NCBI RefSeq assembly: GCF_026151205.1
Contig: NC_087075.1
Span: 5,386,858 to 5,450,857 of the forward strand
DNA: 64,000 nucleotides
From: Bolinopsis microptera
Lineage: Eukaryota; Ctenophora; Tentaculata; Lobata; Bolinopsidae
Direction of reading: 5' to 3'
Shown: positions 765-35,600 of the stretch, in pieces
Position numbering within the stretch: position 1 is the stretch's first letter
How the letters are laid out: the number at the start of each line of letters is the position of its first letter
Made by a program: the position numbers and the translations under genes
Notes under the pieces: model-generated
What the model was told of the DNA's origin: nothing
What the model saw: only the letters and a program-made list of their open reading frames with translations
Database searches by the model: none

Positions 765-770
765 CTACAC
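765..770. repeat. Target-site duplication CTACAC, left copy
   Basis: CTACAC directly precedes the TATGGTGGCC terminus and recurs at 16580-16585 directly after the other terminus. Removing the element and one copy restores the host reading AATCACTCTACACTCGAA. Uninterrupted paralogues at about 25225-25240 and 36490-36500 have this with CTATAC. Confidence 0.9.
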
Positions 771-811
771 TATGGTGGCCGAGGTGGGTCATTGTAAATT
801 ATTTCAAAATA

Positions 812-1018
812 AATTTAGAAAACCAAAAAAAACCAAAAAATAACCAAACTTTTAAAAAATAAACCAAAAATAAATTAAAAAAAAACAAAAAAAAAACTAA
901 ACTAAAAAAAACTTTAAAAAAACCAAAAAAAAAACAATTTAAAACAATAAAAAGCCAAAACAAAAAAAAAACAAAAAAAAATTTAAAAAAAACCAAAAAA
1001 AATTCAAAACAAAAATGA
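812..1018. repeat. A-rich subterminal tract, left arm
   Basis: About 200 bp of AAAC/AAAACC-type low-complexity sequence lies just inside the terminus. It is mirrored by a T-rich tract at 16337-16540. Reading frames through it are phenylalanine-rich and meaningless. Confidence 0.85.
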
Positions 1019-1439
1019 AATCGCTCCATATGGCCGAAATGTGCCATCAGCAGTCCTCACTGCGCGCCACAAAGAACGTACGTTGCGCGCGCGCGCAGAT
1101 GTCTACAATTGTACCAAATGGCGATCGCGCTAACGCGTGCTTATTGTTCCCTCACGTGTAGTCTGATCCAGTTATTATTATCCACCTATTATTGTACTTC
1201 AGGTGAAATATATATGGCATACCGATAAACTCCTGTATTTGACGTGTGATTTAAGCGTGCTTGAAAACGACTGCAGACATTAGGTTATTGAGATTGAGTT
1301 CAGCATCTTGCCCGGCCCCATTGGCCGGACAAATCTCTATATAAATTTGTGTTCAAAGTTGGGAGATTACTTGGGCTTTTTATATTTTGTAGGATGATGT
1401 TAGCAGTGAAACAAAAATGTCATCAAAGTCAATAATTTA

Positions 1440-2060
1440 ATAATCAGACCCATATATAAAACAACCAAGTATATGTTATAATTTAACAAAACATTGTAGT
1501 AGGATGATGTTAGCAGTGAAACAAACATTTTATCATAATAACTTACTTCGTATTCTAATCCTTAGAAAAGAATTGTACCAACTTTATAATTTACGGAGTT
1601 TAACATTTAAACTTTTAAGTTAACTTGAAATCCTTATAACATGATTTTATGGGTAATGGCTGGCTGTACCGAAGAAAAAACAGTACAAAAACCAACAGAA
1701 GAATCAAACCCACATATAAAACAACCAAGTAAATGTTATAATTTAACAAAACATTGTAGTTCTGCTAAAAAGAATTCAATGTTAAAATTTAATGTTAAAA
1801 ATTGAATGTTAAAAATCTAAAAATCAATTTCATGCGTTTAATCGAGGTTTAAATGTGTTTAACCAACCAAGTAAATGTTAAAACAACCAGGTAAATGTTA
1901 TAATTTAACAAAACATTGTAGTTCTGCTAAAAAGAATTCAATGTTTTAATGTTAAAATTTAATGTTAAAAATTGAATGTTAAAAATCTAAAAATCAATTT
2001 CATGCGTTTAATCGAGGTTTAAATGTGTTTAACCAACCAAGTAAATGTTAGTACAAAAAC
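1440..2060. repeat. Degenerate repeats near the transposase 3' end, left arm
   Basis: Blocks containing AAACAACCAAGTAAATG and AATTTAACAAAACATTG recur, together with repeated AATGTTAAAA units. The mirror copy at about 15300-15925 differs slightly in unit number. Confidence 0.7.
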
Positions 2061-2138
2061 CAACAGAAGCTTTTTTACGATATTTATAACTAAACGTTCT
2101 TTATTAATAAAATCTCGGCCTCAACGAGACGGAAATTA

Positions 2139-5100
2139 TCAAAATCTGGTATCTCGATAGACCGCTTCCCTTATTCGTGTGTATTCCGCTTTAACCCCAC
2201 TTACCTGAAGTTCCTGAAACGGGTAAATATTTTAGCAAAAACGTTGCCTAACTATTACATGTTCATAGCCAGTCATTATTACGTGTTCATAGCCAGTCAT
2301 CGGAGTAAGATATATATATATTCCAGTTGCTTTTAGAACAATTTTATCTCAGATAACGATGTTTAATAAAATGATGCAAAGACTTGTTTCGAAGATCTAA
2401 TCAACACCGACTTTTAATGTGTAGGAGTACAGCTACAAAATATATATATATACGACAAACGATAACAATTAATATGAGAGGGGAAGTAGGATGCATTTGA
2501 AGACACTTACTGCTATCCGAGGGAGAGCAGCAACGAGGTATTCAGACGCCAACTCCGAATTAATTTTAATACCAGTAAAAACGTTGGACAAAATATCAGC
2601 GTCAGTGAAACTCTCTATATCCTTGTCAGAAAGCATGATTCCACACTCCTGAATGATAAATAATACCTGATAATTAATAAGAGAGGGGAAAATAAATAAA
2701 AATTGGGCCCAGATAATGGGTTTTCTGTCTGCTAATTTGTATAGCTATGATTGGGTTGTTTTTGTTTGCTAATTTATCTGATTGCGTTAGCCAACACTGT
2801 TGACGGTTTTTAGTAAAGAATAATTCATTGGATCTAATCAAACTAACCTCTCCGCCGTACTCTTCTGGGCACGAATACACATGCTCAGGGATTGTTCCTG
2901 ATGGAAGTTCCACGTTGCGCTGCTTTCTTCCCCTGAACAGATTTATTAGATTATTAGATATGCACTTAAAGAGGCCTCATGTAGCCTCCAGGCTCGAAAA
3001 ACCCCGAAAAACCCCGACACACCCCGAAAAACCCCGACAAACCCCGACACACCCCGACATATCCCGACAAACCCCGACAGACCCCGACAAACCCCGACGT
3101 GTCGAGATATGTCAGGGTATGTCGGATTATGTCAGTTTGCCCCAATAATTATTCAAACCCCGACACACGCCGAAATATCCCGACAAACCCCGACATATCC
3201 CGACAAACTTCGACAAACCCCGACAAACCCCGACACACCCCGACAAACCCCGACAAACCCCGACGTGTCGAGATATGTCGTATCATGTCGGGCCAACCGG
3301 CTACACGAGGCCTTTAAAGACATCCTATATGTTGTTTCTATTCTTGAATGTTTTCAGTAATTTCGTATTGCAGTTTACTATAAATTTATAATCCTACCTC
3401 ATATTGTTATGGTTCTCCCTGAATTCGTCGAGATAACGTTCGACAACAGGTATGAACACACCAGCAATTAAATCCCTGTCATACTCGCAACTTGAATCAT
3501 ACAGACCGTCTTGATCAATCTCTCTAAGTACGTGACGAAAACCATCACAAACCTTTTCGCGGACCTGTCAGCATTTTTTACTTGGAAAATGGGGACAAAC
3601 TATGGTATAAGTAAGGAAACGGACTTTGCTTTGCCTATGTTTGTTTCTTGTCGACAAATAATTGTTTTGAAAACGGTTGTGACCTAAGAAGTGAGCAAGA
3701 TCTAACCAGATTTAGCAAACATTTCACTCCAACTATTGCCTACCTGCCTCCACAATCGTTCTATTTTGTTGGCAGTAGAAGGACCAAGTATCGTTGTAAT
3801 CTCCTTGTCAACATTTTTCAGTTGCAATAGAGTTTTCTGAAAAAAAAGAGTGAAAACAAGCAGAATCCTGCGGTCTAACACCATAGCTTTAAGGTACGTA
3901 TTGAAATTTAATATGGAAACAGCATTTGTAGCAGACATGGCACAGGGACAGTAGGCAGTAGAATATATAAAAAACGCCTTGGAAAATTAACTCACGTGTA
4001 CAGCTGCAGCATGGACGGTCTCAGTTCCTTTGTCAAATCGAAGCATTTGCGGTAAAACTCTAGATTCCAGCAGATGGTCAAACAAAATACGTCCAATAAC
4101 TTCACTGTCTCTATTAGACCGCCCAATGTACAAGAAGATGATTTTCCTACTGTAAGTATCAAGGGCCCTGTGAAAAATTAAAAAGAATTAATAACGCTAG
4201 CATATCGCCCGACCTAAGAACCAACTTTATAAATATAATGAAATCTTATCATGATGATCAGCAATGTTTAAATTATGAATTACTTTAATTTTAAGCATCC
4301 CTCCCCATCACCTCTTAATAAAATACACTGCTAAAAATACATTGTTTAACTGTTTCATACTCAACAGCTATAAATTCACCCTTCTCCCAAAAGTCTTCCT
4401 CCGAGCTTTTCTCCCTGTTACATGATAGATAAGATTTGTTTGATTTGTTCAAGCTCCCCGTCAAGATTGAAGGGCCTTAATTTTGCTCACATCATTTCTA
4501 CAGTCTAAAACTTATATCATAGTTTGGTTATATTCTGTGTTTAAGCCCCTTGCCAAAATTAAAAGATCGGTACCACGCTATAGTCTATACACTCTACAGG
4601 GGCAGAACACCAAATAGGTGCTACAGTATAGTGATATAACTGATTGGCTGATAAGGGGGAAATCTTATCCAATGCTGTGCTCCCATACTGTCACATGATG
4701 CACTCAATCTCATCACGTAGTGTGTGCGCTCATGTCACGTGACAATATTCAGTCAGGTGCACCGTGCACACACTCAATCATGGTTATACAACATACACAT
4801 GATATGCGCCCAGAAATGCCCAGCAGGGTTATCTTTCTAGCTGATGTTGACAGTGGGATTACCCGTTTAATCCCGCCCCTTATGAGCCATCCCGCCCCTT
4901 TCAAAACATCATGAAGGAATTTATAAGTTGTGGGATGGTATAAAAACAATTAGAGCTCAGCAATGGCATGTTTTCACACAAACAAGAAATGTAACATACC
5001 CATATATTTTGAGGTCGAATTGGCAGTTGGCATCCCCACTTAACTTGTCATGGCCATCCAGACTCCATAAGTAGTTTGGCCCCTTGCTGAAGAAGGTCTT

Positions 5101-6244
5101 CTTAGGCCTCTTATTCTTGAACTTTGGAGTGCGCATAACAACACCTTGTGGATCAACTAACCTTAGTGTATTCATAACATCATCTCTCGATACGAAGAGG
5201 CCTTGAGACCTGCAACAAGGAACAGTGAATATACTGAATATTGATAAATAAGGTGTATATATACACATATATGCATTATACCGTTCCTTAACATCGTGAT
5301 GCCATTGTTTTAATACTACTTCAAGGCGCCTCAATTATTATAAAAATGTTTACTCCTTTTTTCATTGACGTGTTTAAATATTTTAACTTGTTACATTAAC
5401 ACTACAAATTTGCCCTTTTTAGTGTACCTTAGTTTTTCAGTCACATCCCGGTATCCTAATTGGCCCGAACTTTCGTTAACAACATTCTGTACCGCCGTCA
5501 GCAAAGTATGATCATCAACATCATTGTGTCGTTTAATGTTCCAGTGATTCAGCATTCTGCAAAGCACTTATTAGTGAAACTTTTAGTTTTACTGAAAATG
5601 TTTTGTTTTACTCAATCAATCCATGTGTATTGTGTACACATATGCACAACAGATTTTTGTTTTTAATATGTGGTCATTTGGTAAAGTATAAGTTTCGGTG
5701 TTAATCTTTAGTTCAAATACCAGTGAGGTAGATCGTAGAGGGCTGAGGGAGTGGAAGGTTTTTCGTCAGAAATATGAAAATTCAAAACCCATTCGATATG
5801 TTCATAGTAACTTGACTAGACTTAAACGCACTTGTGTGCTCATGAGTGTAATGAAGGAGGGTCCAATAAGGGTTAAATACACGGCGCAATTCTGCAACGT
5901 TTTACGTTGACATAGCAAAACTGAACTGCACATTGAATGAGGGTCCAATAGGGGCGCGAGCAATTTTGCTATGTAAATATAACAAAATTGCGCCCCGCAT
6001 TAGACCCTCGTTCATTGCATCTATGAGCACACATGCAGTAATGAACAGTAAACACGATTTCCATTAATTTACAATGTTCATTGTCTGCATTATACCTTTT
6101 TACAGTGCGTTCTGAATAAGCCCTGTAGTTGGGGAACTTCTTTGGCAGGAGTGAAGTAATCTCGCTGCAAGTATAGTTGGATGCTCTTGAAGCCTCCAAA
6201 AAGTGTCTCAGATCTTCGTCTCCCATCCATGCTGGACCATCCAT
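2139..6244 (-). CDS. DDE integrase-core (rve/IS3-like) transposase, left copy, nine exons, apparently intact
   Basis: Nine exons join in consistent phase into about 405-411 codons: 6096-6244, 5428-5556, 5000-5209, 3996-4167, 3744-3836, 3398-3564, 2848-2932, 2511-2666 (or starting at 2648) and 2139-2213. Exon 2 ends in a QLGYRDVTEKLR helix motif and exon 3 has the family signature VDPQGVVMR. The catalytic acidic residues are placed at WSLDGHDK (exon 3), RFDKGTET (exon 4) and NKIERLW (exon 5), spaced about 63 and 37 residues apart. A conserved C-terminal PEEYGG segment follows. The protein should cut and join the element's ends in the nucleus. Unlike the right copy, exon 6 keeps its donor (ATGAG|GTAGG). 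Exon 9 here reads CAGGTAAGT where the right arm has CAGTTAAGT, which creates a possible extra splice donor. Confidence 0.82.
2998..3288. repeat. 10-bp CCCCGACAAA minisatellite, left arm
   Basis: Two blocks of CCCCGACAAA/CCCCGACACA repeats lie in the intron between transposase exons 6 and 7, each closed by the motif GTGTCGAGATATGTC. The small proline-rich frames through it are repeat translation, not genes. The right-arm copy differs by single bases and in a few units. Confidence 0.88.
5834..6032. repeat. Small fold-back MITE in transposase intron 1, left arm
   Basis: The ends GTGTGCTCATRGATG and its complement bracket two inverted blocks containing GGACCCTC and GGGCGCAATTT. The element is mirrored at 11355-11553, so it was already present before the arms became a palindrome, or was copied with them. 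Confidence 0.65.
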
Positions 6245-6782
6245 GACATATACCTATATTTTATGTTCTCATGTTGTGAAATTATTCATGGGACAAAGCA
6301 ATATCACAAATTACTTTGCAATAATGTCCTAGTTGCACACAATATTTTGATGATATTCAACTTCATTATTTGTTATTTGGTAATGCAGAAGGTATTTTAA
6401 CAGTATTAATACCCTACTATATAATGAAGATCATCAAAAGGCACTGAAAGAAAAATTTTTATATTTTTGAAAGAAAAATTTTTATTTACCACAAAACAAT
6501 CAAAACATAATGTTATACGAAACGAAAACGAAACGAAACACTGTATTTACTACCCCGCTACTATGCGACAAAGATATTGTATAAAGATAACTAAATAATT
6601 TATACAATATGGTGCCCATGTCTGAGCGGCTCTCCTCAAATAACTTTCTCTCCTCCTCGGAGCAGAAAGTTAAAAACAAAACACAGGTCTCATAAATCAA
6701 AAAATACTAAATAATGTTAAAGAGATAATATCAGATTAACTGTCGCAGAAAAATGGTTAAAGTATACATATTACATAATTGA

Positions 6783-7022
6783 TTTTATTGACACACCGAT
6801 AAAAACCAGAAAAACAAGAAGTGGATACTCGGAAAACAAAAAATAACACAAAAAAGACTAGAAGCCACAAAAAATAGCTTAACCAGGCTATAGCTGATCA
6901 TACAAATAGTTCTTTAACTTACCCTTAAAAGAGACAATATTCTCGATGTTACGGACATTAAGAGGGAGAGAATTCCATGATTCAGGTGCATAGTTGCTGA
7001 ACCGCCTGCTAGTTGCCTTCAA
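6783..7022 (-). pseudogene. LINE 3' terminal fragment carried in the left arm
   Basis: Read on the minus strand, this encodes a short tail including FSNYAPESWNSLPLNVR and FKGKLKNYLYDQL before a stop, followed by an AATAAA. That is the usual C-terminus of CR1/L2/Jockey-like reverse transcriptases (AP..WN.LP..IR). Only the last 45 or so codons and the 3' UTR are present. The mirror copy is at 10365-10604. Confidence 0.7.
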
Positions 7023-7026
7023 TTTA

Positions 7027-8687
7027 GAGAACTATATTCATAAATAAAATCAAATTTCAATTTCAACCACATATACAGTACGCCGCGCACACAGCCACTA
7101 TTTTGGTGGGCGTTCTTATAGTTCTACTGTTCCATATCTTCCAAAGATGGATACTAGGCTCAGGTTACTTGGCTCAGATCTCGTGTCTTCTGATGCTTTG
7201 AGAGGGCCTGACATGGTTCAGATCTCGAGCCTTGGGTCGGATCTCGATGTTTGAGGATCGTATCCTTTTCGGCACGCTTTGTAAACACATAAGCTTGTTA
7301 GATCAGATCTTGCGAAAGGCACCTGAGACCTTGTCATCTATTAGTACGCTTGTTATACAGATCGGATCAATACATAAGAAAGAGAGATGGTGGTCGCAGA
7401 ATCTAATTATGATTGTCTTCAGCAAGTACATCCGCTGACAAAGAGGAGCTGAACTACTTCTGGAGTCTGGACACAGACGGTGTCCTCAACACCCGGAGAA
7501 AGGATCGAGATACCCTACTACCTCTACCTGGAGATGCCAGAGGTACAGAATCAAGAAATGTCCTGCTCATGTAATCCTTGACCATGGAGATCAGTCCTTG
7601 GCCAGCGGTGCCAAACCTCATTCCCACGACCCTGACAACTTAAAGTTAAACTAGAGCGGTATTTGGAAACCTGTTTATCTTTTAGTTATTTCTAACTGAC
7701 GATTGGGTTCAGTTGTCGTTTCAAAGTTAATTAGGTAAACTGATTGGGTTTTTAATTATTTTCCCAAGCTACCCTGTCTAGGAAAAGTCCAAATTGGGTT
7801 CAGTTGTCCGGTAGCCTTTGAGGAGCTATAAAATAATGACATAATACATCTTACAATATCATACATTTAAAACACCATGAGGAGAAGTTAAACATAACTT
7901 TCGAGATACAAATCGAAAAGTTCAAACATCCAGACAAGATATTACTTACTATTAAGTATATGTGCTCCCAAAAAGTCTTAACGGCCATCTAACACCATGC
8001 TAGTAGCCAGCTGTTACAGTAATAGCCCAGCCCTCTTACACCCCTCTAATAGCCATAACACCACCAGTAGTTATCAGGTATAATCCACGATTCTGCCTTC
8101 ACAGATTATCAACCAGTGTCCAAAATTATTTAATAAAGGATATTAACATCACACCATTTATCCCCAATCGACAAAGATCATATTCCAAATGTCTTCAAAA
8201 ACTACAGACCAGTGTCAAACCTTGAGAAAATTGATTGAAAGAAAAGGCTACAGGAGCAATGAGCATGTAATGATAATCTCAATTTTCCAGACTCTACTTC
8301 TGGACAATATGCTTACAAAAGAGATCATAAATGGGTACTCCACATCAAAGAGAATACATGAAAACATAATTAGTAATCAAATTACACATCAAAAAGATAA
8401 CTAAATAGGGTGAAAAGGAGTTTCGAAATGCAACAATAATACTAAAAAACAACCTAGGTATTTTTGTGAAAATATGACAGTATCTGCTTTAGCGCTCGAT
8501 TTTCATACCACGGTGTAAATTTTCGAAAATATGCGCGGCGCGCCTAAAATTTTGGTTCTATTAAAAATAAATTTTTTGGTCAAAATTATATTTAATATAT
8601 TGAAATTAGTTGTTATTACAGATATATGTTAAAATATTTCCAAAATATAGAATATAAGTACCCAAAATAAAATGCGCGCAAAAAAGT
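7027..8687. other. Inner part of the left arm, no gene recognised
   Basis: This AT-rich stretch lies between the LINE fragment and the palindrome centre. It holds a few short open frames that are mirrored exactly in the right arm; none resembles a known protein. It includes GCGCGGCGCGCC at about 8534 and must contain the transposase promoter or 5' exon, which I cannot locate. Confidence 0.6.
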
Positions 8688-8699
8688 CAAAATTTTAAC
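8688..8699. other. Centre of the giant palindrome (12-bp non-palindromic spacer)
   Basis: The left arm ends GCGCGCAAAAAAGT at 8687 and the right arm begins ACTTTTTTGCGCGC at 8700. The spacer is CAAAATTTTAAC, itself nearly symmetric. With so little spacer the DNA could extrude as a perfect hairpin. Confidence 0.9.
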
Positions 8700-10360
8700 A
8701 CTTTTTTGCGCGCATTTTATTTTGGGTACTTATATTCTATATTTTGGAAATATTTTAACATATATCTGTAATAACAACTAATTTCAATATATTAAATATA
8801 ATTTTGACCAAAAAATTTATTTTTAATAGAACCAAAATTTTAGGCGCGCCGCGCATATTTTCGAAAATTTACACCGTGGTATGAAAATCGAGCGCTAAAG
8901 CAGATACTGTCATATTTTCACAAAAATACCTAGGTTGTTTTTTAGTATTATTGTTGCATTTCGAAACTCCTTTTCACCCTATTTAGTTATCTTTTTGATG
9001 TGTAATTTGATTACTAATTATGTTTTCATGTATTCTCTTTGATGTGGAGTACCCATTTATGATCTCTTTTGTAAGCATATTGTCCAGAAGTAGAGTCTGG
9101 AAAATTGAGATTATCATTACATGCTCATTGCTCCTGTAGCCTTTTCTTTCAATCAATTTTCTCAAGGTTTGACACTGGTCTGTAGTTTTTGAAGACATTT
9201 GGAATATGATCTTTGTCGATTGGGGATAAATGGTGTGATGTTAATATCCTTTATTAAATAATTTTGGACACTGGTTGATAATCTGTGAAGGCAGAATCGT
9301 GGATTATACCTGATAACTACTGGTGGTGTTATGGCTATTAGAGGGGTGTAAGAGGGCTGGGCTATTACTGTAACAGCTGGCTACTAGCATGGTGTTAGAT
9401 GGCCGTTAAGACTTTTTGGGAGCACATATACTTAATAGTAAGTAATATCTTGTCTGGATGTTTGAACTTTTCGATTTGTATCTCGAAAGTTATGTTTAAC
9501 TTCTCCTCATGGTGTTTTAAATGTATGATATTGTAAGATGTATTATGTCATTATTTTATAGCTCCTCAAAGGCTACCGGACAACTGAACCCAATTTGGAC
9601 TTTTCCTAGACAGGGTAGCTTGGGAAAATAATTAAAAACCCAATCAGTTTACCTAATTAACTTTGAAACGACAACTGAACCCAATCGTCAGTTAGAAATA
9701 ACTAAAAGATAAACAGGTTTCCAAATACCGCTCTAGTTTAACTTTAAGTTGTCAGGGTCGTGGGAATGAGGTTTGGCACCGCTGGCCAAGGACTGATCTC
9801 CATGGTCAAGGATTACATGAGCAGGACATTTCTTGATTCTGTACCTCTGGCATCTCCAGGTAGAGGTAGTAGGGTATCTCGATCCTTTCTCCGGGTGTTG
9901 AGGACACCGTCTGTGTCCAGACTCCAGAAGTAGTTCAGCTCCTCTTTGTCAGCGGATGTACTTGCTGAAGACAATCATAATTAGATTCTGCGACCACCAT
10001 CTCTCTTTCTTATGTATTGATCCGATCTGTATAACAAGCGTACTAATAGATGACAAGGTCTCAGGTGCCTTTCGCAAGATCTGATCTAACAAGCTTATGT
10101 GTTTACAAAGCGTGCCGAAAAGGATACGATCCTCAAACATCGAGATCCGACCCAAGGCTCGAGATCTGAACCATGTCAGGCCCTCTCAAAGCATCAGAAG
10201 ACACGAGATCTGAGCCAAGTAACCTGAGCCTAGTATCCATCTTTGGAAGATATGGAACAGTAGAACTATAAGAACGCCCACCAAAATAGTGGCTGTGTGC
10301 GCGGCGTACTGTATATGTGGTTGAAATTGAAATTTGATTTTATTTATGAATATAGTTCTC
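8700..10360. other. Inner part of the right arm, no gene recognised
   Basis: Mirror of 7027-8687. AT-rich, with only short frames that are also present in the other arm. I see no known domain. Confidence 0.6.
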
Positions 10361-10364
10361 TAAA

Positions 10365-10604
10365 TTGAAGGCAACTAGCAGGCGGTTCAGCAACTATGCA
10401 CCTGAATCATGGAATTCTCTCCCTCTTAATGTCCGTAACATCGAGAATATTGTCTCTTTTAAGGGTAAGTTAAAGAACTATTTGTATGATCAGCTATAGC
10501 CTGGTTAAGCTATTTTTTGTGGCTTCTAGTCTTTTTTGTGTTATTTTTTGTTTTCCGAGTATCCACTTCTTGTTTTTCTGGTTTTTATCGGTGTGTCAAT
10601 AAAA
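10365..10604 (+). pseudogene. LINE 3' terminal fragment carried in the right arm
   Basis: Mirror of 6783-7022. It encodes the FSNYAPESWNSLPLNVR tail of a non-LTR reverse transcriptase, stops at about 10500 and has an AATAAA near 10599. Confidence 0.7.
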
Positions 10605-11354
10605 TCAATTATGTAATATGTATACTTTAACCATTTTTCTGCGACAGTTAATCTGATATTATCTCTTTAACATTATTTAGTATTTTTTGATTTATGAGAC
10701 CCGTGTTTTGTTTTTAACTTTCTGCTCCGAGGAGGAGAGAAAGTTATTTGAGGAGAGCCGCTCAGACATGGGCACCATATTGTATAAATTATTTAGTTAT
10801 CTTTATACAATATCTTTGTCGCATAGTAGCGGGGTAGTAAATACAGTGTTTCGTTTCGTTTTCGTTTCGTATAACATTATGTTTTGATTGTTTTGTGGTA
10901 AATAAAAATTTTTCTTTCAAAAATATAAAAATTTTTCTTTCAGTGCCTTTTGATGATCTTCATTATATAGTAGGGTATTAATACTGTTAAAATACCTTCT
11001 GCATTACCAAATAACAAATAATGAAGTTGAATATCATCAAAATATTGTGTGCAACTAGGACATTATTGCAAAGTAATTTGTGATATTGCTTTGTCCCATG
11101 AATAATTTCACAACATGAGAACATAAAATATAGGTATATGTCATGGATGGTCCAGCATGGATGGGAGACGAAGATCTGAGACACTTTTTGGAGGCTTCAA
11201 GAGCATCCAACTATACTTGCAGCGAGATTACTTCACTCCTGCCAAAGAAGTTCCCCAACTACAGGGCTTATTCAGAACGCACTGTAAAAAGGTATAATGC
11301 AGACAATGAACATTGTAAATTAATGGAAATCGTGTTTACTGTTCATTACTGCAT

Positions 11355-11553
11355 GTGTGCTCATAGATGCAATGAACGAGGGTCTAATGCGGGGCGCAAT
11401 TTTGTTATATTTACATAGCAAAATTGCTCGCGCCCCTATTGGACCCTCATTCAATGTGCAGTTCAGTTTTGCTATGTCAACGTAAAACGTTGCAGAATTG
11501 CGCCGTGTATTTAACCCTTATTGGACCCTCCTTCATTACACTCATGAGCACAC
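11355..11553. repeat. Small fold-back MITE in transposase intron 1, right arm
   Basis: Mirror of 5834-6032. It begins GTGTGCTCATAGATG and ends CTCATGAGCACAC, with inverted GAGGGTCTAAT/ATTGGACCCTC blocks inside. Confidence 0.65.
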
Positions 11554-14074
11554 AAGTGCGTTTAAGTCTAGTCAAGTTACTATGAACATATCGAATGGGT
11601 TTTGAATTTTCATATTTCTGACGAAAAACCTTCCACTCCCTCAGCCCTCTACGATCTACCTCACTGGTATTTGAACTAAAGATTAACACCGAAACTTATA
11701 CTTTACCAAATGACCACATATTAAAAACAAAAATCTGTTGTGCATATGTGTACACAATACACATGGATTGATTGAGTAAAACAAAACATTTTCAGTAAAA
11801 CTAAAAGTTTCACTAATAAGTGCTTTGCAGAATGCTGAATCACTGGAACATTAAACGACACAATGATGTTGATGATCATACTTTGCTGACGGCGGTACAG
11901 AATGTTGTTAACGAAAGTTCGGGCCAATTAGGATACCGGGATGTGACTGAAAAACTAAGGTACACTAAAAAGGGCAAATTTGTAGTGTTAATGTAACAAG
12001 TTAAAATATTTAAACACGTCAATGAAAAAAGGAGTAAACATTTTTATAATAATTGAGGCGCCTTGAAGTAGTATTAAAACAATGGCATCACGATGTTAAG
12101 GAACGGTATAATGCATATATGTGTATATATACACCTTATTTATCAATATTCAGTATATTCACTGTTCCTTGTTGCAGGTCTCAAGGCCTCTTCGTATCGA
12201 GAGATGATGTTATGAATACACTAAGGTTAGTTGATCCACAAGGTGTTGTTATGCGCACTCCAAAGTTCAAGAATAAGAGGCCTAAGAAGACCTTCTTCAG
12301 CAAGGGGCCAAACTACTTATGGAGTCTGGATGGCCATGACAAGTTAAGTGGGGATGCCAACTGCCAATTCGACCTCAAAATATATGGGTATGTTACATTT
12401 CTTGTTTGTGTGAAAACATGCCATTGCTGAGCTCTAATTGTTTTTATACCATCCCACAACTTATAAATTCCTTCATGATGTTTTGAAAGGGGCGGGATGG
12501 CTCATAAGGGGCGGGATTAAACGGGTAATCCCACTGTCAACATCAGCTAGAAAGATAACCCTGCTGGGCATTTCTGGGCGCATATCATGTGTATGTTGTA
12601 TAACCATGATTGAGTGTGTGCACGGTGCACCTGACTGAATATTGTCACGTGACATGAGCGCACACACTACGTGATGAGATTGAGTGCATCATGTGACAGT
12701 ATGGGAGCACAGCATTGGATAAGATTTCCCCCTTATCAGCCAATCAGTTATATCACTATACTGTAGCACCTATTTGGTGTTCTGCCCCTGTAGAGTGTAT
12801 AGACTATAGCGTGGTACCGATCTTTTAATTTTGGCAAGGGGCTTAAACACAGAATATAACCAAACTATGATATAAGTTTTAGACTGTAGAAATGATGTGA
12901 GCAAAATTAAGGCCCTTCAATCTTGACGGGGAGCTTGAACAAATCAAACAAATCTTATCTATCATGTAACAGGGAGAAAAGCTCGGAGGAAGACTTTTGG
13001 GAGAAGGGTGAATTTATAGCTGTTGAGTATGAAACAGTTAAACAATGTATTTTTAGCAGTGTATTTTATTAAGAGGTGATGGGGAGGGATGCTTAAAATT
13101 AAAGTAATTCATAATTTAAACATTGCTGATCATCATGATAAGATTTCATTATATTTATAAAGTTGGTTCTTAGGTCGGGCGATATGCTAGCGTTATTAAT
13201 TCTTTTTAATTTTTCACAGGGCCCTTGATACTTACAGTAGGAAAATCATCTTCTTGTACATTGGGCGGTCTAATAGAGACAGTGAAGTTATTGGACGTAT
13301 TTTGTTTGACCATCTGCTGGAATCTAGAGTTTTACCGCAAATGCTTCGATTTGACAAAGGAACTGAGACCGTCCATGCTGCAGCTGTACACGTGAGTTAA
13401 TTTTCCAAGGCGTTTTTTATATATTCTACTGCCTACTGTCCCTGTGCCATGTCTGCTACAAATGCTGTTTCCATATTAAATTTCAATACGTACCTTAAAG
13501 CTATGGTGTTAGACCGCAGGATTCTGCTTGTTTTCACTCTTTTTTTTCAGAAAACTCTATTGCAACTGAAAAATGTTGACAAGGAGATTACAACGATACT
13601 TGGTCCTTCTACTGCCAACAAAATAGAACGATTGTGGAGGCAGGTAGGCAATAGTTGGAGTGAAATGTTTGCTAAATCTGGTTAGATCTTGCTCACTTCT
13701 TAGGTCACAACCGTTTTCAAAACAATTATTTGTCGACAAGAAACAAACATAGGCAAAGCAAAGTCCGTTTCCTTACTTATACCATAGTTTGTCCCCATTT
13801 TCCAAGTAAAAAATGCTGACAGGTCCGCGAAAAGGTTTGTGATGGTTTTCGTCACGTACTTAGAGAGATTGATCAAGACGGTCTGTATGATTCAAGTTGC
13901 GAGTATGACAGGGATTTAATTGCTGGTGTGTTCATACCTGTTGTCGAACGTTATCTCGACGAATTCAGGGAGAACCATAACAATACTGCAATACGAAATT
14001 ACTGAAAACATTCAAGAATAGAAACAACATATAGGATGTCTTTAAAGGCCTCGTGTAGCCGGTTGGCCCGACAT

Positions 14075-14368
14075 GATACGACATATCTCGACACGTCGGG
14101 GTTTGTCGGGGTTTGTCAGGGTTTGTCGGGGTTTGTCGGGGTTTGTCGAAGTTTGTCGGGATATGTCGGGGTTTGTCGGGATATTTCGGCGTGTGTCGGG
14201 GTTTGAAATAATTATTGGGGCAAACTGACATAATCCGACATACCCTGACATATCTCGACACGTCGGGGTTTGTCGGGGTCTGTCGGGGTTTGTCGGGATA
14301 TGTCGGGGTGTGTCGGGGTTTGTCGGGGTTTTTCGGGGTGTGTCGGGGTTTTTCGGGGTTTTTCGAGC
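14075..14368. repeat. 10-bp TTTGTCGGGG minisatellite, right arm
   Basis: Mirror of 2998-3288, between transposase exons 6 and 7. Units are TTTGTCGGGG and TGTGTCGGGG, with GACATATCTCGACACG closing motifs. Confidence 0.88.
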
Positions 14369-15299
14369 CTGGAGGCTACATGAGGCCTCTTTAAGTGCAT
14401 ATCTAATAATCTAATAAATCTGTTCAGGGGAAGAAAGCAGCGCAACGTGGAACTTCCATCAGGGACAATCCCTGAGCATGTGTATTCGTGCCCAGAAGAG
14501 TACGGCGGAGAGGTTAGTTTGATTAGATCCAATGAATTATTCTTTACTAAAAACCGTCAACAGTGTTGGCTAACGCAATCAGATAAATTAGCAAACAAAA
14601 ACAACCCAATCATAGCTATACAAATTAGCAGACAGAAAACCCATTATCTGGGCCCAATTTTTATTTATTTTCCCCTCTCTTATTAATTATCAGGTATTAT
14701 TTATCATTCAGGAGTGTGGAATCATGCTTTCTGACAAGGATATAGAGAGTTTCACTGACGCTGATATTTTGTCCAACGTTTTTACTGGTATTAAAATTAA
14801 TTCGGAGTTGGCGTCTGAATACCTCGTTGCTGCTCTCCCTCGGATAGCAGTAAGTGTCTTCAAATGCATCCTACTTCCCCTCTCATATTAATTGTTATCG
14901 TTTGTCGTATATATATATATTTTGTAGCTGTACTCCTACACATTAAAAGTCGGTGTTGATTAGATCTTCGAAACAAGTCTTTGCATCATTTTATTAAACA
15001 TCGTTATCTGAGATAAAATTGTTCTAAAAGCAACTGGAATATATATATATCTTACTCCGATGACTGGCTATGAACACGTAATAATGACTGGCTATGAACA
15101 TGTAATAGTTAGGCAACGTTTTTGCTAAAATATTTACCCGTTTCAGGAACTTCAGTTAAGTGGGGTTAAAGCGGAATACACACGAATAAGGGAAGCGGTC
15201 TATCGAGATACCAGATTTTGATAATTTCCGTCTCGTTGAGGCCGAGATTTTATTAATAAAGAACGTTTAGTTATAAATATCGTAAAAAAGCTTCTGTTG

Positions 15300-15925
15300 G
15301 TTTTTGTACTAACATTTACTTGGTTGGTTAAACACATTTAAACCTCGATTAAACGCATGAAATTGATTTTTAGATTTTTAACATTCAATTTTTAACATTA
15401 AATTTTAACATTAAATTTTAACATTGAATTCTTTTTAGCAGAACTACAATGTTTTGTTAAATTATAACATTTACCTGGTTGTTTTAACATTTACTTGGTT
15501 GGTTAAACACATTTAAACCTCGATTAAACGCATGAAATTGATTTTTAGATTTTTAACATTCAATTTTTAACATTAAATTTTAACATTGAATTCTTTTTAG
15601 CAGAACTACAATGTTTTGTTAAATTATAACATTTACTTGGTTGTTTTATATGTGGGTTTGATTCTTCTGTTGGTTTTTGTACTGTTTTATCTTCGGTACA
15701 GCCAGCCATTACCCATAAAATCATGTTATAAGGATTTCAAGTTAACTTAAAAGTTTAAATTTTAAACTCCGTAAATTATAAAGTTGGTACAATTCTTTTC
15801 TAAGGATTAGAATACGAAGTAAGTTATTATGATAAAATGTTTGTTTCACTGCTAACATCATCCTACTACAATGTTTTGTTAAATTATAACATATACTTGG
15901 TTGTTTTATATATGGGTCTGATTAT
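15300..15925. repeat. Degenerate repeats near the transposase 3' end, right arm
   Basis: Mirror of 1440-2060. Units contain CATTTACTTGGTTG and CAATGTTTTGTTAAATT. One TTAACATTAAATTT unit count differs from the left arm. Confidence 0.7.
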
Positions 15926-16336
15926 TAAATTATTGACTTTGATGACATTTTTGTTTCACTGCTAACATCATCCTACAAAATATAAAAAGCCCAAGTAATC
16001 TCCCAACTTTGAACACAAATTTATATAGAGATTTGTCCGGCCAATGGGGCCGGGCAAGATGCTGAACTCAATCTCAATAACCTAATGTCTGCAGTCGTTT
16101 TCAAGCACGCTTAAATCACACGTCAAATACAGGAGTTTATCGGTATGCCATATATATTTCACCTGAGGACAATAATAGGTGGATAATAATAACTGGATCA
16201 GACTACACGTGAGGGAACAATAAGCACGCGTTAGCGCGATCGCCATTTGGTACAATTGTAGACATCTGCGCGCGCGCAACGTACGTTCTTTGTGGCGCGC
16301 AGTGAGGACTGCTGATGGCACATTTCGGCCATATGG

Positions 16337-16540
16337 AGCGATTTCATTTTTGTTTTGATTTTTTTTTGGTTTTTTTTTAATTTTTTTTTGTTTTTTTTTG
16401 TTTTGGTTTTTTATTGTTTTAAATTGTTTTTCTTTTGGTTTTTTTTAAGTTTTTTTTAGTTTAGTTTTTTTAAAATTTATTTTTGGTTTATTTTTTAAAA
16501 GTTTGGTTATTTTTTGGTTTTTTTTGGTTTTCTAAATTTA
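16337..16540. repeat. T-rich subterminal tract, right arm
   Basis: Mirror of the A-rich tract at 812-1018; runs of T with occasional G. Confidence 0.85.
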
Positions 16541-16579
16541 TTTTGAAATAATTTACAATGACCCACCTCGGCCACCATA

Positions 16580-16585
16580 CTACAC
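16580..16585. repeat. Target-site duplication CTACAC, right copy
   Basis: Directly abuts the right terminus and matches 765-770. Confidence 0.9.
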
Positions 16586-18477: not shown

Positions 18478-21400
18478 AGGTCTCCTCAATCATTCGAGTG
18501 GCCTACACCAATGAACTCCCGTTTGTGACGTATCATCTCCCTCCAAAGTTTGCGGTCACTAGCCATCTCGCTCGCTCCTTCTAGGTCTATGTCAGTGTTT
18601 CCTGTAAACGCTGTAGCATCTTCCAGCAAACATTTCCTCCAGTTCTTTCTTGGACGGCCCCTAGATCTTCTCCCATGGGCAGGGGTCCAGTTAAGCAGGT
18701 ACTTAGGAAGCCTAGTGTCTGGCATTCTGGTGACATGGCCAAACCAACGCAGGCGGTTTGCTCCTATGTACGTCTCTACTGGATTTATCTTTGCACGCTC
18801 CAGCACTTCAGTGTTTCTAACCCGATCGAGCCATCTTATCCTAAGTATTCTCCTCAAGCAACGCTGATGGAACACCTCAAAGCGATGTAGCTGCTTTTTG
18901 GTTGTGTTCCAAACCTCACTACCATATAACAATATTGTCAAAACCGCTGCCTTATAAATCCTGATCTTTGTATAAGACTGGATGTTGCGGTTTTTCCATA
19001 TATTACTCAGTTGATTAAAGGCTCCGGAAGCTTTCTGAATCCTAGCTGACAGCTCACGGTCGATAGTACCGTCGCTGGAAATAATTGTACCTAAGTACGT
19101 AAAGTCACTAACTTGCTGCACTGGCGTGTCTTCAACAGTGATGTTCACACATAGCCTCAGTCTTTTTACCATTGATTCTAAGACCTCGCTGGGCACCATA
19201 CATACACAAAAGGTCAGTTGTCTCTTGAAGACCTTCCTCGCTGTTATCCAGTACAGCTATGCCATCTGCATAATCTGTATCTAACACAGTGATATCATCA
19301 ACAAGCGGACTGATAGATCTTTGAAGAACCGCTCCGTGGGACACCACTTTGTTGCTTTCTGTTCTCTCAGCAGCCACATTGAGGCAGACATTAAAAAGTG
19401 GGGGACCCTGAATGTCTCCTTGGCCACTGCCTGAACTTACTTCAAACCATTCTGATAGTTCACCATTGTGTCTAACAGCACTAACAGTTCCATTAAAGAA
19501 TGCCTGTATTATTCGAATGTATTTACATGGCAGGCCATAATGACTGAAAGCTTTCCAAATATAATTCCTGTCGATGGAATCAAAAGCTGCCTTGAAGTCC
19601 ACAAAATTTACATACAGGGGGAGATTATATTCAATGCAGTTATGTATAATAGTGCGGAGTGAATAAATCTGATCAATGCATGATCTGTTCTTTCTAAACC
19701 CACACTGATTGTCTCGTAGCAAACTTTCTAAACCGTCACTCATGCGTTGTAATATGATGATTTGATACAGTTTAGATGCTGTAGATCTTAGAGTGATCCC
19801 CCTATTATTGGAGCAATGAGAGGTATCACCCTTCTTTGGTACAATTATCACAATGCCTTTCAACCAGTCGTCAGGCACTGCTTCTGAATTCCAAACTTTA
19901 GAGAACAATTTCTCCATCCTATCCACAAGACCACTTGCCCCATACTTTAACTGCTCATTAGAGATTTCGTCGATCCCAGCACTTTTGTGGTTCTTCAATT
20001 TTTTGAGACAGTTTAAAATCTCAAGTCTAGTGGAGGGACCATCACCATCACCAAGATAAGGAAAGCATGGAATCACTTCAAGATGGTCCAGGTCAGACAG
20101 ATCCGCATTCGTGGGAGGAGGGTTTAATAGCTCCGAAAAATGTTCTCCCCAGGCCCATCTCTCTCTGAGCAGAGGGATCAGCAATCAACTTCCCGGATTT
20201 GTCTCTTACAGCAGTTGATTTTCGATTCTTCTTACCGGACAGTGTTTTTATCCGTTGCCAAACTTCCCTTTGCCGGCCATGGACAGCAGCTGTTTGATGT
20301 TTCCAGATCTGCTACAACTCTAAGAGCCCAATTCTCGTCGTCTTTCCTGCAGCTCTTTTTGACAAGTTTGTTGGCCCGAGAATACTCGCTCCTATTGTTG
20401 TTGTCACTAGGCGCCATCTGTTTAATCTTACTGCGTTCTGCAATAAGGCTTTTTGTCTCCTGAGACAAATGCTGCTGCTTTCTGCGCCGGGGGCGCTCAC
20501 CCAGTACCTCCATAGACACTTCTTTAATAGTATCCTTAACTAATGTCCATTCTCCATCAAGATTTACCTCCATTGGTAGGCAGCTAAAATGATTTTGAAG
20601 AGCAATGCAGTACTCTTCAACCTTGGACTGATCCCTAAGATTCTCAATTGCTGGAGATATCCTACGAGAGGCGTTCATTTTTTGAACTGCCATAAGTTTG
20701 ACTCTAAATTGACCCCGAACCAAATAATGATCGGAGCCAATGATGCTGGAAAAGCGTCCCACCGATTGTCAGCTGATGTAATGCACAGAAATCTAATAGT
20801 CGAAGGCCGTTGTCATTTGATGAAACGTGAAGGGAATGCTTACCAATCACACCGGACCAAGCTGAGTTATCTTGGCCAATGCGAGCATTTAGATCTCCAA
20901 GTAAAAACTTCACGTCATGAGCTGGTAGTTCATCAAATGCCCCAGATAGCTGCTGATAAAAGTCATCCTTTACCCCGACTGCTGCATCCTCAGTTGGAGC
21001 ATAAGCTATCACAATCGAAATGTTGATATGTCGACTGTGCAGCCTCGCTGCAAGAATACGTTCTGATATCGGACTGTATGAAATCAATGAATTTTTAGTC
21101 TTCTTCGAGAGGACTAAACCTACCCCTTGTCGTCTGTACCCATCACTTCTTCCTGAGTTAATAAAGAGGGACCCATCATCCAAGGTAACCTCACCAGTGC
21201 CGGATCTGTGCGTCTCTGTCAGCCCCAAGACATCCATTTTATATGCTGACATATTCTGTGACAATTCATACAGCTTTAAGGAACTGCTCTCCAATGATAA
21301 CACATTCCACGTTCCCACATCAATACTGTGTTTGATAAAGTTGTATGGGAGTGCTCTCCGGCTCTCCCCTTCTCCGGGTCCACATGAGTGATATGCTGTG

Positions 21401-24937: not shown

Positions 24938-26552
24938 GTTCGGGTTTCACATGTCTTAATATCCTAATATATGTAGCTTATTAGAAATTATTTGTCTTAT
25001 ATTTTAACAAAAGTTACGGAATTTTAACACAAACCAATATTTTTCCTTTAATCATATGAAATCATATTTTTAACAAAAGATTGACTCTGGAAGTGCAACT
25101 GAAGTAGTGAAAAAAGTAGTGATCATTTTAAGAGATTGTCAGTTCAGGGAGGTTATAGCAATTAAAATAATTAATATCAAATACAAGTTCTAAACAAAGG
25201 ATAGTTAAAAACGCGCGTGCTAAATCACTCTATACTCGAACTTCGAGATTTTTCTTAAAGGACCCCAACCGTTGAAACCTTAAATCGATATAGTTTCAAC
25301 GGTCTATCGGTGTATTTGTGAGCGCTGATTCCGCATCAACCCACCTGACACAGGGTTAAAATGCTCCCCTGGCGAGTTATCGACGAAAAACTGTTTTTGA
25401 TCACGTGACTTGACCAAATAAGGAGATTGGTATATTGTCTCGTTAGGGTTAAGGTTTTAGCATATGCTTTAGTTAGGGTAAGGGTTAGGGTTTTATATAG
25501 TCCCTCAGGGCCATCTAGAGAACTTGTTTACTGTTTAATAGAGTCACGTGATATTATAGTGTAGATATAGTGTGATATTATAGTGTAGATAAGAGTGATT
25601 GGTCATCATCCAGTTAAAAACAATGCCCAAGTCAAACTTCACTGTAGTTTCTACCAATTTTGAATTTCTCTTATCATAAGCTAAATTACAGTCAAAGCAA
25701 ACAAAAAATGTACAAGTTGTTTTGGGCTGCCTTAAAACGAGAGCACAGTCTCAGCTGACCTATCCTCAAGTGTGCTGCGCATGTCACGTCATTAGCTCTC
25801 GCCAGGGTTCTCTCTGGATAATTTAGTTGCATTGTTTTTGAAGAGTTATCGACGAATAACCCAAGGACATGGGAGAGCTTATTGCTGAATTATTCAATAG
25901 CTCGGGGACTCTTGGTCTCTCCTGGGTCCCTTAACTACTACTATAGGTGTAAGAAATCCTGTTATAAATGTCAAAGCTTACTAAATTGTATAGAACAATT
26001 TATAGTGGAGTAAAAGAGAGATATAGAGAGAGAATGGGAATAAGAACCCAAGGATTTTTATGATCGGTCAATGATGTCATCTCTCCTACTGGGGACCTAA
26101 AAATAGCCTACCTAGAAATAAAATACTTATTTGAGTGACCATGAAGGTTTATTATACTATTATACGAGGGTGAGGTGTTTGAAACACGCGCATTTTTAGG
26201 TACCAACATGGTATTTTTGGTAAACAGAGCAAGAGGCTGTATCACAACTGAATTTTCATGAAAATATAACGTTTCGTATTAAGAGTTACAAGTTGGTTCG
26301 TCCGCACAAAATTAAGTTAAATAATAAACGTACCTTTCAAGGCAATGGCATCTTACCTTGCCTCTATACAACGGGAACGGGATTCAACTCCCGGAGTTAC
26401 AAGGATTATCGATTAAACGGGAAATTTATACTATAAATTCCCTTCATCCAAGATTCCCTGTAATCGGGGTACTTTACGCAGGTAACAGTGCAAGGAACAC
26501 AAAGATATGAAGGATTAGTAATTAAAGTAAATAAACATAGGTGATATATCAC
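24938..26552. repeat. Duplicated upstream block, copy for gene A
   Basis: From about 25141 it aligns with the sequence upstream of genes 1, 2 and 3 (AACAAAGGATAGTTAAAAAC, TAAATCACTCTATACTCG, TCACGTGACTTGACC, GTGTGCTGCGCATGTC). The uninterrupted target of the giant transposon is at about 25225-25240 and that of the 8-bp-TSD element at about 26062. A local duplication of GTGATATTATAGTGTAGATA lies at 25550-25590. No coding exon is seen. Confidence 0.75.
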
Positions 26553-27856
26553 CTATATACCTGATCAGTATAGATGTGACGTATAACATGACATTATGAT
26601 AATGTCGAGGAATAAAATATTTTAATCAGAAGTGTTACGTAGTTACAAGTGTTATATACGGTAGCGTGTCTTTATATTTACCTGGGGCTGGCATGTAGTA
26701 GTCAGAAGCTGTGTCCGAGGAATAGAATTCAATCTGCTCCACTTTTTTACTCCACCGCTCGTTCCACTTATTGTGAGTACACGCCTGATCTGACATGGTA
26801 ATATCCACTACTTTTACCTCGTTACAGTGCACCGTTATCCTTGGTCCAGAGAACTTAGCTATCTTCCATCTCTTATTCACGTCACTAGATGGGGTGGAGA
26901 GGATATAAGGAGAGTAGTTTTGTGTGCAATAGCCGGTAGCGTACTGTGGGGGAGAGGTGAACCTGAGTCTGACAGTTCCTACCATGTATCCCTCTGCGGT
27001 GTAGAACCTCACATACACATAGTCCTCACTCCCATCAGCACTATTTGTCCGTATCTCTAGCGGAGTCCTTGTCAGGTTGTGAAGTATTTTTACTCCACGT
27101 TTCACTGGTTTCCAAGTTCCTGTAAAACAGTAAAACTGTATTCTTTATGAGTTCCATTTATTATGAATCCGTGTTGACCATTTTAGCCATCGCTGAGAAC
27201 GAGACAACTTAGTTGTCTTGATAAAACGACTGTTGAACTTAAACAATTCACTGGAAATTTATGGAGATAGGCGGACTCAAACAGATAGCACATGTAATTT
27301 TATTAGGAACGTTATAATATGATTTACCACGGCACTCAAAAATGGTGGACCATACTATTACTGCTCGATTTATAGGCATGCTTAGAATTAGTCGTCTGTC
27401 CGTTTTTATTTGCAGATAATCAATATATCACAGCTCACACGTAAGTTTTATCAATCTTATGTCGTAAACGATAACATATTTGAATTATTTTTAGTAGAGA
27501 TGTGCATTAGAATCTAATTTGTAAACTTCTTCCCATCAGTACCAATAGGAGGTTTAAAATAGAGATTATCTTGAGGCCTTAGGCCATAGATATCTTCAGA
27601 ATATTAGGAGATTGCTTGAAATTCTATGAAATTTAAACAATAAGTTTACTACTGCTAAAGTCTTATTATATAGATTATAGGGTTACTGATAGGATATATG
27701 TAGCTTCATAATATAACTACATGTGCGATAGATACAAAAATGATACTTAGTCTAAAATATTTGTCGCTGTTTGACATTAAAATACAAATTCTTACCTTCG
27801 TTCGTATCAGCACTTGCAGTCCCAACAAAGAAGAGGAACGAAAACAATTTCAACAT
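26553..27856 (-). CDS. Gene 2: secreted protein with the cluster's unrecognised domain
   Basis: Exon 1 (27796-27856) encodes a signal peptide (MLKLFSFLFFVGTASADTNE) ending in phase 1. Exon 2 (26682-27119, 438 nt, phase 1-1) encodes about 146 residues beginning GTWKPVKRGVKILHNL. Notable parts are LEIRTNSADGSEDYVYVRFY, ITVHCNEVKVVDITMSD and VEQIEFYSSDTASDYY. The alternating pattern suggests a beta-sandwich, but I do not recognise the family; a PLAT-like or FAMeT-like fold is only a guess. A last exon appears to start at 26560 and stops after one codon (GT ATA TAG). The protein should be secreted. The same domain occurs in genes 3 and 4. Confidence 0.72.
27120..27795. other. Intron 1 of gene 2, no other gene seen
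   Basis: AT-rich intron with GTAAG donor and TGTTTTACAG acceptor. It aligns with gene 3's intron at about 35800-36326 and gene 1's at 255-560. It includes GGCACTCAAAAATGGTGGAC, shared with gene 3. Confidence 0.7.
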
Positions 27857-28025
27857 TCCTAATTTTAGAAGATTGGGTATTAACTGAGACAGATTAGAGG
27901 GACGCACGAGGGACACAGTACAGGGAGGTTAAAGCAATTATAATAAATATTATCTAATACAATTTCTAAACAAGGAATAGTTAAAAACAAGCGTGCCAAA
28001 TCACTCGAACTGCGAGATTTTTCTT
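27857..28025. repeat. Duplicated upstream block of gene 2, proximal part
   Basis: Matches 626-770 and 25141-25260 up to the words CGAGATTTTTCTTG at 28024, where a LINE fragment interrupts it. Confidence 0.75.
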
Positions 28026-35200: not shown

Positions 35201-35600
35201 GCTACAACAGAGAGCTGATTCCTGGCATCGACGGGTGCGGTTGGAAAGCTCTGCTCTTTACGGTAGAGATTGGGTGTAGGGGCTTCTGGCACCATACTGT
35301 ACCAGCTCTATTTAACTACTTTGGATTGGCGAAGAGAACGAAGAATAAAGCCCTGAATGAGGCTGCTTTGGTCGCTCTTCGATGTTCCTATACAATCTGG
35401 TTAGCCCGCGACAACAAGAAATGGTCTACCTGCTACGACATCGCAAGGAGGCCAGAAGTCATAAACTGTGAAAGCTGAGTGTTGGGCCCATAAAACATGT
35501 TGAAAGCTGCAACCAGGATCACAAGTACTGGTGGAATACAGAATGACTTGCTAATCAGATTGATAGATGGAGTTGCTATCGAAAGATATAGAACTCAGGT
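32280..35600 (+). mobile_element. Non-LTR retrotransposon with restriction-like endonuclease in gene 3 intron
   Basis: A nearly full coding region sits between AT-rich intron sequences homologous to gene 2's intron. The exact ends and any target duplication are not clear; RLE elements often lack a regular duplication. A tail of about 120 bp follows the stop codon. Confidence 0.7.
32301..35478 (+). pseudogene. Reverse transcriptase plus restriction-like endonuclease polyprotein (R2/NeSL/HERO-type), one frameshift
   Basis: The first frame (32301-33506) starts MSEQEPSQEHNH, has a charged coiled region and then RT fingers with RPNKSSPGPNGVPYVVYKR and ILADKMLDYMV. The second (33430-35478) continues with DLMNAYGRVPHNL (motif A), GLFQGDPLSVVLF (motif B) and RAFADDLTLMSS (motif C, intact). 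It then has a CALCGWKTCNIKHILAVC zinc knuckle and an endonuclease with ERPDIVVWSD..ELTCGDE..KEARY. A frame change and probable loss of a few codons near 33430 break the protein just before motif A. No N-terminal zinc finger is visible. Apart from that break it looks young. Confidence 0.82.

Follow-up and report, generated by a model that had tools for sequence, protein, structure and literature searches.

A 15.8-kb palindrome in the genome of Bolinopsis microptera as a likely fold-back derivative of an IS3EU transposon

The palindrome and its insertion site

A palindrome of 15,809 bp is present in the assembled genome of the ctenophore Bolinopsis microptera (NCBI RefSeq assembly GCF_026151205.1), at positions 771-16579 of a stretch of 64,000 nucleotides (contig NC_087075.1, here C4; C4:5386858-5450857 within the 264.7-Mb genome). 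This whole stretch is referred to as the window, and positions are those of the window unless a contig is named. The original prediction for this DNA had described two 7.9-kb inverted arms with a 12-bp centre, which moved as a single transposon. Self-BLAST and alignment of the arms confirmed this structure, with the predicted coordinates correct to a few bases. Aligned to its own reverse complement, the palindrome is 99.2% identical over 15,860 columns. The left arm (771-8687, plus strand), which represents the transposase half of an IS3EU element, and the right arm (8700-16579, minus strand) are separated by the spacer CAAAATTTTAAC at 8688-8699, and the longest perfect arm beside this centre measures 2,002 bp on each side. 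The two arms differ by 19 substitutions in 7,880 compared bases, four of which are the innermost bases, where the asymmetric spacer was split in two, and by several insertions and deletions, the biggest being 28 bp.

Both outer ends of the palindrome read TATGGTGGCCGAGG, and the hexamer CTACAC is found on either side of it, at 765-770 and again at 16580-16585, as a target-site duplication; identical termini and this duplication had been predicted as well. Identical hexamers at the spacing of the palindrome occur at 16 of the 48,100 window positions tested. The insertion site was examined by joining the two flanks, with the duplication kept once, and aligning them to paralogues in the window. 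The joined flanks align without a break at the site through 25140-25346 (plus strand; 180/216 identical) and 36433-36566 (plus strand; 110/134 identical), both of which read CTATAC at the site itself, and the empty sites proposed near 25230 and 36495 are thereby upheld. A third paralogue at 27882-28025 (118/151) has a 7-base gap at the insertion site and is less clear.

Each arm carries a transposase gene of nine exons with GT-AG introns, encoding 399 residues; the start of the gene lies about 2.5 kb from the centre, and transcription is directed towards the outer end. As mapped via alignment, the left-arm gene occupies 2139-6226 on the minus strand, with exons 1-5 at 6226-6096, 5556-5428, 5209-5000, 4167-3996 and 3836-3744, and exons 6-9 at 3564-3398, 2932-2848, 2648-2511 and 2213-2139. 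By the same mapping, the right-arm gene occupies 11161-15221 on the plus strand, with exons 1-5 at 11161-11291, 11831-11959, 12178-12387, 13220-13391 and 13551-13643, and exons 6-9 at 13823-13985, 14428-14512, 14712-14849 and 15147-15221. The left gene is uninterrupted, while the right one has lost the end of exon 6 together with its splice donor. An annotated protein, LOC134815582, matches the transposase of the palindrome. In Pfam, the matching protein P0001 gave rva_4 with an E-value of 2.1e-23 and rve with 0.001, below the cut-off, whereas the single exon piece 4957-5334 gave no match, unlike the whole protein. In an alignment of 13 proteins (P0001 and 12 other matches, chosen from 94 proteins), D138 and D202 are invariant and E240 is nearly so; we take these three residues to be the catalytic triad.

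Further inwards, a 515-bp dispersed transposon with TATA on both sides lies at 6518-7032 (plus strand), and its mirror lies at 10355-10869 (minus strand; the match is at C4:5397204-5397729, and the exact limits were obtained by mirroring the left copy). Around the centre, a portion of a dispersed 664-bp repeat extends over 8327-8708 (plus strand) and is mirrored at 8679-9060 (minus strand).

Further copies and a non-palindromic sibling

The genome was searched with the outer 336 bp of the element (best 40 of 50 candidates scored, so that counts are lower bounds), which gave at least 72 matches. The top nine represent the ends of four large elements, on C4, C5, C1 and C10, and a lone end on C6 that matches over about 317 bp. 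Three of the four large elements listed with these ends, those on C4, C5 and C1, are palindromes with a common centre. With a centre-proximal query (best 40 of 212 candidates scored) at least 45 matches were obtained, and adjoining full-length matches in both orientations occurred only at C4, C5 and C1 among the matches listed. The C5 palindrome is 18,592 bp long and contains a 3,947-bp insertion in its left arm only. The C1 palindrome (L015-L017) is 14,550 bp long, with an 842-bp insertion in its left arm only, and additionally differs in shorter tandem-repeat stretches. A more distant pair of ends bounds a 3,091-bp fold-back element at C11:10532034-10535124 (L021 4034-7124), with the same ends and inverted arms of about 1.1 kb. 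The matches listed, which comprise the four pairs, C11 and the lone C6 end, include no single-arm element.

All five complete copies have the termini TATGGTGGCC..GGCCACCATA and exact target-site duplications, of 6 bp in three of the five (CTACAC at C4, CTTATT at C5, CACATC at C11) and of 7 bp in the other two (GTCACCG at C1, GGGAGAG at C10). BLAST of the 500-bp flanks returned no match in any of the ten pairs of loci. It had been proposed from the C4 locus to look for other full palindromes with duplications of their own; the two that were found, C5 and C1, are on different large contigs and lie in unrelated flanks. Palindromes as a general habit of the transposase family were also considered, and this was not seen: two more distant relatives (L044 and L045, 10 kb each) have no long inverted arms among the 20 BLAST matches listed, a sample too small to exclude such a habit.

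The fourth large element, on C10, is 18,150 bp long with exact ends and is not palindromic. Its right half is about 94-97% identical to the arm in the main pieces, with gaps, while its left end matches just the outer 1.2 kb of the arm (query positions 7-576 and 735-1222, the query starting at window position 765). The outer end of the C4 palindrome at 771-1986 (plus strand) is in this way homologous to the ordinary inverted end of its sibling. In the interior of C10 there is an alpha-kinase reading frame (PF02816, E 2.1e-22) that faces outward, away from the transposase, together with a hAT dimerisation piece (E 3.7e-11), the dispersed 664-bp repeat and a weak reverse-transcriptase match (E 0.0007, below the cut-off). 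Of the copies at hand, C10 seems to show best how the element was laid out before the palindrome arose, although the palindromes need not descend directly from it. The transposase is uninterrupted in both arms of C5 and frameshifted in C10 and in both arms of C1.

These features can be compared with those of the IS3EU superfamily. According to the available text of two descriptions, IS3EU elements have TA..TA ends and usually 6-bp duplications, fungal families have TAYGG..CCRTA, and the TET+ fungal families carry transposase and alpha-kinase genes in opposite orientation, which is not stated there as a requirement (PMC10045372, PMC12730594). The copies on C4, C5, C1, C10 and C11 all have TATGG..CCATA ends, the usual 6-bp duplication is found in three of the five, and the transposase is of the rve-like DDE type. 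The opposite-facing alpha-kinase gene is present in C10. The differences are the 7-bp duplications of C1 and C10 and, in the three palindromes, a mirrored transposase half instead of the alpha-kinase half. From its ends, duplications and predicted transposase, the palindromic element appears to fit IS3EU. The view that its rve/IS3-like layout is without precedent therefore has to be narrowed, as the element derives from an already described superfamily and is not a new kind; the doubling of a complete transposase gene was not found elsewhere in the open-licence literature searched. Transposase and alpha-kinase matches lie less than 10 kb apart at five further places (C10:1.35-1.36 Mb, C12:2.83 Mb, C7:18.78 Mb, C195 and C4:3.61 Mb); at four of the five the two matches share a strand. 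As a side observation, the same IS3EU relative is found with equal scores at both C7:18.78 Mb and the small contig C195, which may reflect an unmerged second haplotype.

Origin, movement and concerted change of the arms

The centre of the palindromes falls within the 664-bp repeat, which in C10 lies whole between the transposase and alpha-kinase genes and is cut in the palindromes. C10 and all eight fetched copies of the repeat run unrearranged through the centre point, where seven of the eight read CACTTTTTTGGATTTTTAC; L030 and C10 deviate from this at a few bases. C5 and C1 have a common, idiosyncratic junction, CACTTTTTTGGATTTTTA followed directly by TTTTGGG, after which they turn back into the arm as TTTTGGGTAC. 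The C4 centre is symmetric, its asymmetric bases having been replaced, with GCGCGC on both sides, and is taken to be a version of the same centre that underwent later conversion. The simplest reading of the junction is a fold-back in which TTTTA would have paired with TAAAA 39 bases upstream, with a putative inner stem of CAAAAAAG and CTTTTTTG. That the palindromes break inside the repeat at this TAAAA/TTTTA junction suggests a single origin by fold-back copying. An independent origin of each palindrome is rejected for C5 and C1, because both have the same imperfect junction. Separately, at C12:4249871-4250329 a 257-bp piece of the dispersed repeat (94%) and two short pieces (78-79%) adjoin in both orientations; an older, second fold-back event within this repeat family may be the cause.

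It is very likely that the element derives from an ordinary IS3EU cut-and-paste transposon, turned into a palindrome by fold-back and then moved whole. The ancestor, as its layout may be read from C10, would have had inverted ends of about 1.2 kb and divergent transposase and alpha-kinase genes with the 664-bp repeat between them. A strand broken or stalled inside the repeat would have folded back, TTTTA on TAAAA, and copied the transposase half outwards again, either in the chromosome or in a transposition intermediate, so that the alpha-kinase half was lost and a mirror image took its place. The product would carry two identical transposase-side ends in inverted order, which we infer the transposase would accept as a normal pair. 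The whole palindrome would subsequently have transposed, creating its own duplications, and sequence would afterwards have been copied from one arm to the other within each copy, as in the palindromes of Y chromosomes.

Movement of the whole is best supported for C4 and C5, which are 0.28-0.45% apart over the whole arms and 0.47-0.70% in the outer 1.9 kb. Given this closeness, the separate duplications and the unrelated flanks, the whole palindrome most likely transposed, and C4 and C5 most likely both descend from one palindrome that moved. The core of the original prediction, movement as one transposon, gains support in this way from three palindromes with a common centre, each with its own duplication in unrelated flanks, from the empty-site paralogues of C4 and from the small distance between C4 and C5.

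Several observations weigh against this account. The 58-base strand at the fold-back point folds no better than shuffled versions of it (z -0.34; 62 of 200 fold equally well or better), and a specially strong DNA hairpin as the cause of the fold-back is for this reason unsupported. The first 250 bp of C4 and C5 are more divergent than the rest (4/250 and 8/237). When the ends are cut at a fixed 1,250 bp, the right end of C5 is 6.6-7.3% from C4 and from the left end of C5, and C1 is about 16-18% from both C4 and C5. About 167 bp of tandem repeat is missing at the outer end from the right arm of C5 and from both arms of C1, and the high divergence at the fixed cut is tentatively ascribed to these missing copies, which would bring unlike sequence into alignment. 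C1 is moreover a mosaic, with the outer 1.9 kb of both arms 3.9% from C4 and an interior at 0.6-1.1%. Finally, the palindromes are known from the assembly alone, and elements so long and so alike are hard to assemble; the available text of the genome report names PacBio continuous long read (CLR) or HiFi libraries for its species, a wtdbg2 assembly for the present one and Pilon in the pipeline (PMC10232365), and polishing or assembly could blur differences between arms.

The mosaic structure of C1 implies either that it moved earlier and exchanged its interior later, or that it received a palindromic interior by recombination, and its palindromic interior may have been acquired in the latter way. 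Extended to all copies, this would mean that a single palindrome formed and moved little, and that the others obtained their interior by ectopic recombination within the inverted ends of resident IS3EU copies. The diverged outer ends of C1 around a nearly identical interior are what such a process would leave. C4 and C5, which lie at unrelated sites with separate duplications, are close in the outer 1.9 kb as well, and we regard this explanation as unlikely.

Within copies the arms show a pattern of homogenisation, as if sequence had been copied from arm to arm. The 515-bp element occurs at mirror positions in both arms of C4 and is absent from C5 and C1; C10 is uninformative on this point because it lacks the surrounding region. 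Elsewhere the genome holds at least 23 further near-full copies of it, 96-99% identical (best 40 of 257 candidates scored). Likewise, an insert about 203 bp long, which is A-rich and has a 17-bp duplication and is by these two features retroposon-like, is found at mirror positions in both arms of C1 and is absent from C4, C5 and C10, with at least 38 further copies elsewhere at 94-99% (best 40 of 571 candidates scored). The frameshift of the C1 transposase is common to both C1 arms.

Sites were counted in an alignment of the six palindrome arms with the right half of C10, from which 6,780 of 13,240 columns with a gap in any palindrome arm (mostly inserts) were left out. The two C1 arms stand apart from all four arms of C4 and C5 at 40 sites, 34 of them in the outer 1.9 kb; C10 agrees with C4/C5 at 30 and with C1 at seven, and has a gap or another base in three. 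Five sites are common to the two arms of C4 alone and two to those of C5 alone. Changes confined to one arm number 44 in the right and 27 in the left arm of C1; the corresponding counts are 8 and 3 for C4, and 2 and 7 for C5. The right arms of C5 and C1 have eight sites in common, seven of which are at the junction, and four other sites split the arms across copies. In trees of two segments, the C1 arms pair in both (support 100/100 in the outer and 95/91 in the inner segment) and the C4 arms in one (98/96, inner), while the C5 arms in both segments and the outer C4 arms are left unpaired. Gene conversion is the likely route of this homogenisation.

A different route to the same likeness would be that the palindrome is remade at each move from a single arm via a hairpin-ended intermediate, so that each copy would land with identical arms and gene conversion would not have to be invoked. 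The inserts and the frameshift common to both arms of one copy only would be accounted for, as would the scarcity of arm differences common between copies away from the junction, namely site 214 (left arms of C4 and C5) and site 202 (right arms of C5 and C1), both in the variable outer 250 bp. Yet at sites 145, 7248 and 7403 the arms of C4 or C5 are split, with one arm siding with the other copies. The divergence of the C1 arms is also patchy, with 21/246 in the outer 250 bp against 0/1,999 at arm positions 3251-5250; such unevenness is easier to reconcile with conversion tracts than with a single, uniform round of copying. Arm-to-arm gene conversion accounts for the data without a new intermediate, and remaking at each move is distinctly improbable.

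A fold-back artefact was a concern of the original prediction. The palindromes would in that case be products of the assembly, built from reads folded back at a missed adapter or by a mistaken path through a repeated element, and this explanation would draw on the assembly procedure described above. A fold-back read would have mirrored the flank too; instead, the flanks of the two sides differ and exact duplications are found at three palindromes, and the joined C4 flanks match unbroken paralogues. The large inserts in the left arms of C5 and C1 have been kept apart, as has a 28-bp deletion confined to one arm of C4, and such retained differences speak against the assembler or polisher as the main cause of arm likeness. 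We consider an artefact very improbable. Two separate 7.9-kb elements inserted head to head, for which it could be cited that every arm has a transposase gene (complete in the left arm of C4 and in both arms of C5), are rejected because the inner ends sit in the dispersed repeat that is intact in C10, at the same junction at three loci and without termini or duplications, TATGG and the duplication being at the outer ends only, and no single-arm element is among the matches listed.

Elsewhere in the window, nested inverted repeats with 1.15-kb arms at 95% occupy 43143-47702, a block built of a young high-copy element whose 1,147-bp unit is found at 39 or more other places at 98-99% (best 40 of 2,298). 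Two tandem-repeat blocks with offsets of about 35 and 70 bp and copies about 88-94% alike lie at 49525-50983. By eye, two minus-strand reading frames at 26635-27105 and 47734-48183 are similar to each other, and long frames at 18486-21318 and 32301-35478 resemble proteins of non-LTR (long terminal repeat) retrotransposons.

Known systems and biological meaning

As a rule, long palindromes with next to no spacer are regarded as unstable. Polinton/Maverick elements carry, next to an rve integrase, genes for a protein-primed DNA polymerase and a capsid; the 6-bp duplication would fit this group, but no stop-free stretch in the arm exceeds 136 codons, with Pfam having been run on selected pieces. 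The closest precedent is Galileo, a Foldback-like element of Drosophila. According to the accessible part of its description, copy 112 is 9,021 bp long with inverted ends of 4,246 and 4,680 bp and is without transposase, other copies have just parts of the open reading frame (69 bp, over 500 bp) entering the arms, and the authors propose that another, inserted transposon may be transferred from arm to arm (PMC4168063). The two systems thus have in common inverted ends that can span nearly the whole element and a proposed transfer of inserts between arms. Galileo, as described there, belongs to the P superfamily and makes 7-8-bp duplications, whereas the palindromes here have a whole transposase gene per arm; membership in this group was rejected, given the rva_4 transposase and the 6-bp duplications in three of five copies. 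The statement that known transposons have short or moderate inverted ends does not hold for Galileo copy 112, which on the same partial evidence is nearly all inverted repeat, though without transposase. No transposon with a complete transposase gene in each of two arms was found in the open-licence literature searched.

Broken chromosomes of yeast can form inverted duplications by fold-back, and in two of three such events from wild-type cells a 5-bp repeat with a 35-bp spacer served as primer, according to the available portion of one study (PMC10622511). The short inverted-repeat priming proposed here, with 5 bp and 39 bases, is alike; in yeast, as far as that portion goes, the inverted duplication leads to dicentric chromosomes, whereas here the palindrome would have moved away by transposition as a mobile unit. 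Y-chromosome palindromes undergo arm-to-arm gene conversion, as the accessible text of one report states (PMC5490193), and their arms likewise evolve in concert. Unlike them, the element here is mobile and present in several copies, has a 12-bp centre and encodes its own transposase.

It is possible, if doubtful, that the palindrome is itself the propagating form, a self-templating lineage in which the two arms serve as transposase back-ups kept alike by arm-to-arm copying or remaking, the structure being maintained and not merely tolerated. In any event, a palindrome of about 15 kb appears to have been made, moved and kept at several places of an animal genome, where its junction can still be read and a sibling displays the condition that preceded the fold-back. 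It would offer a natural test of how fold-back copying creates a new form of transposon, and of how fast palindrome arms are homogenised outside the sex chromosomes.

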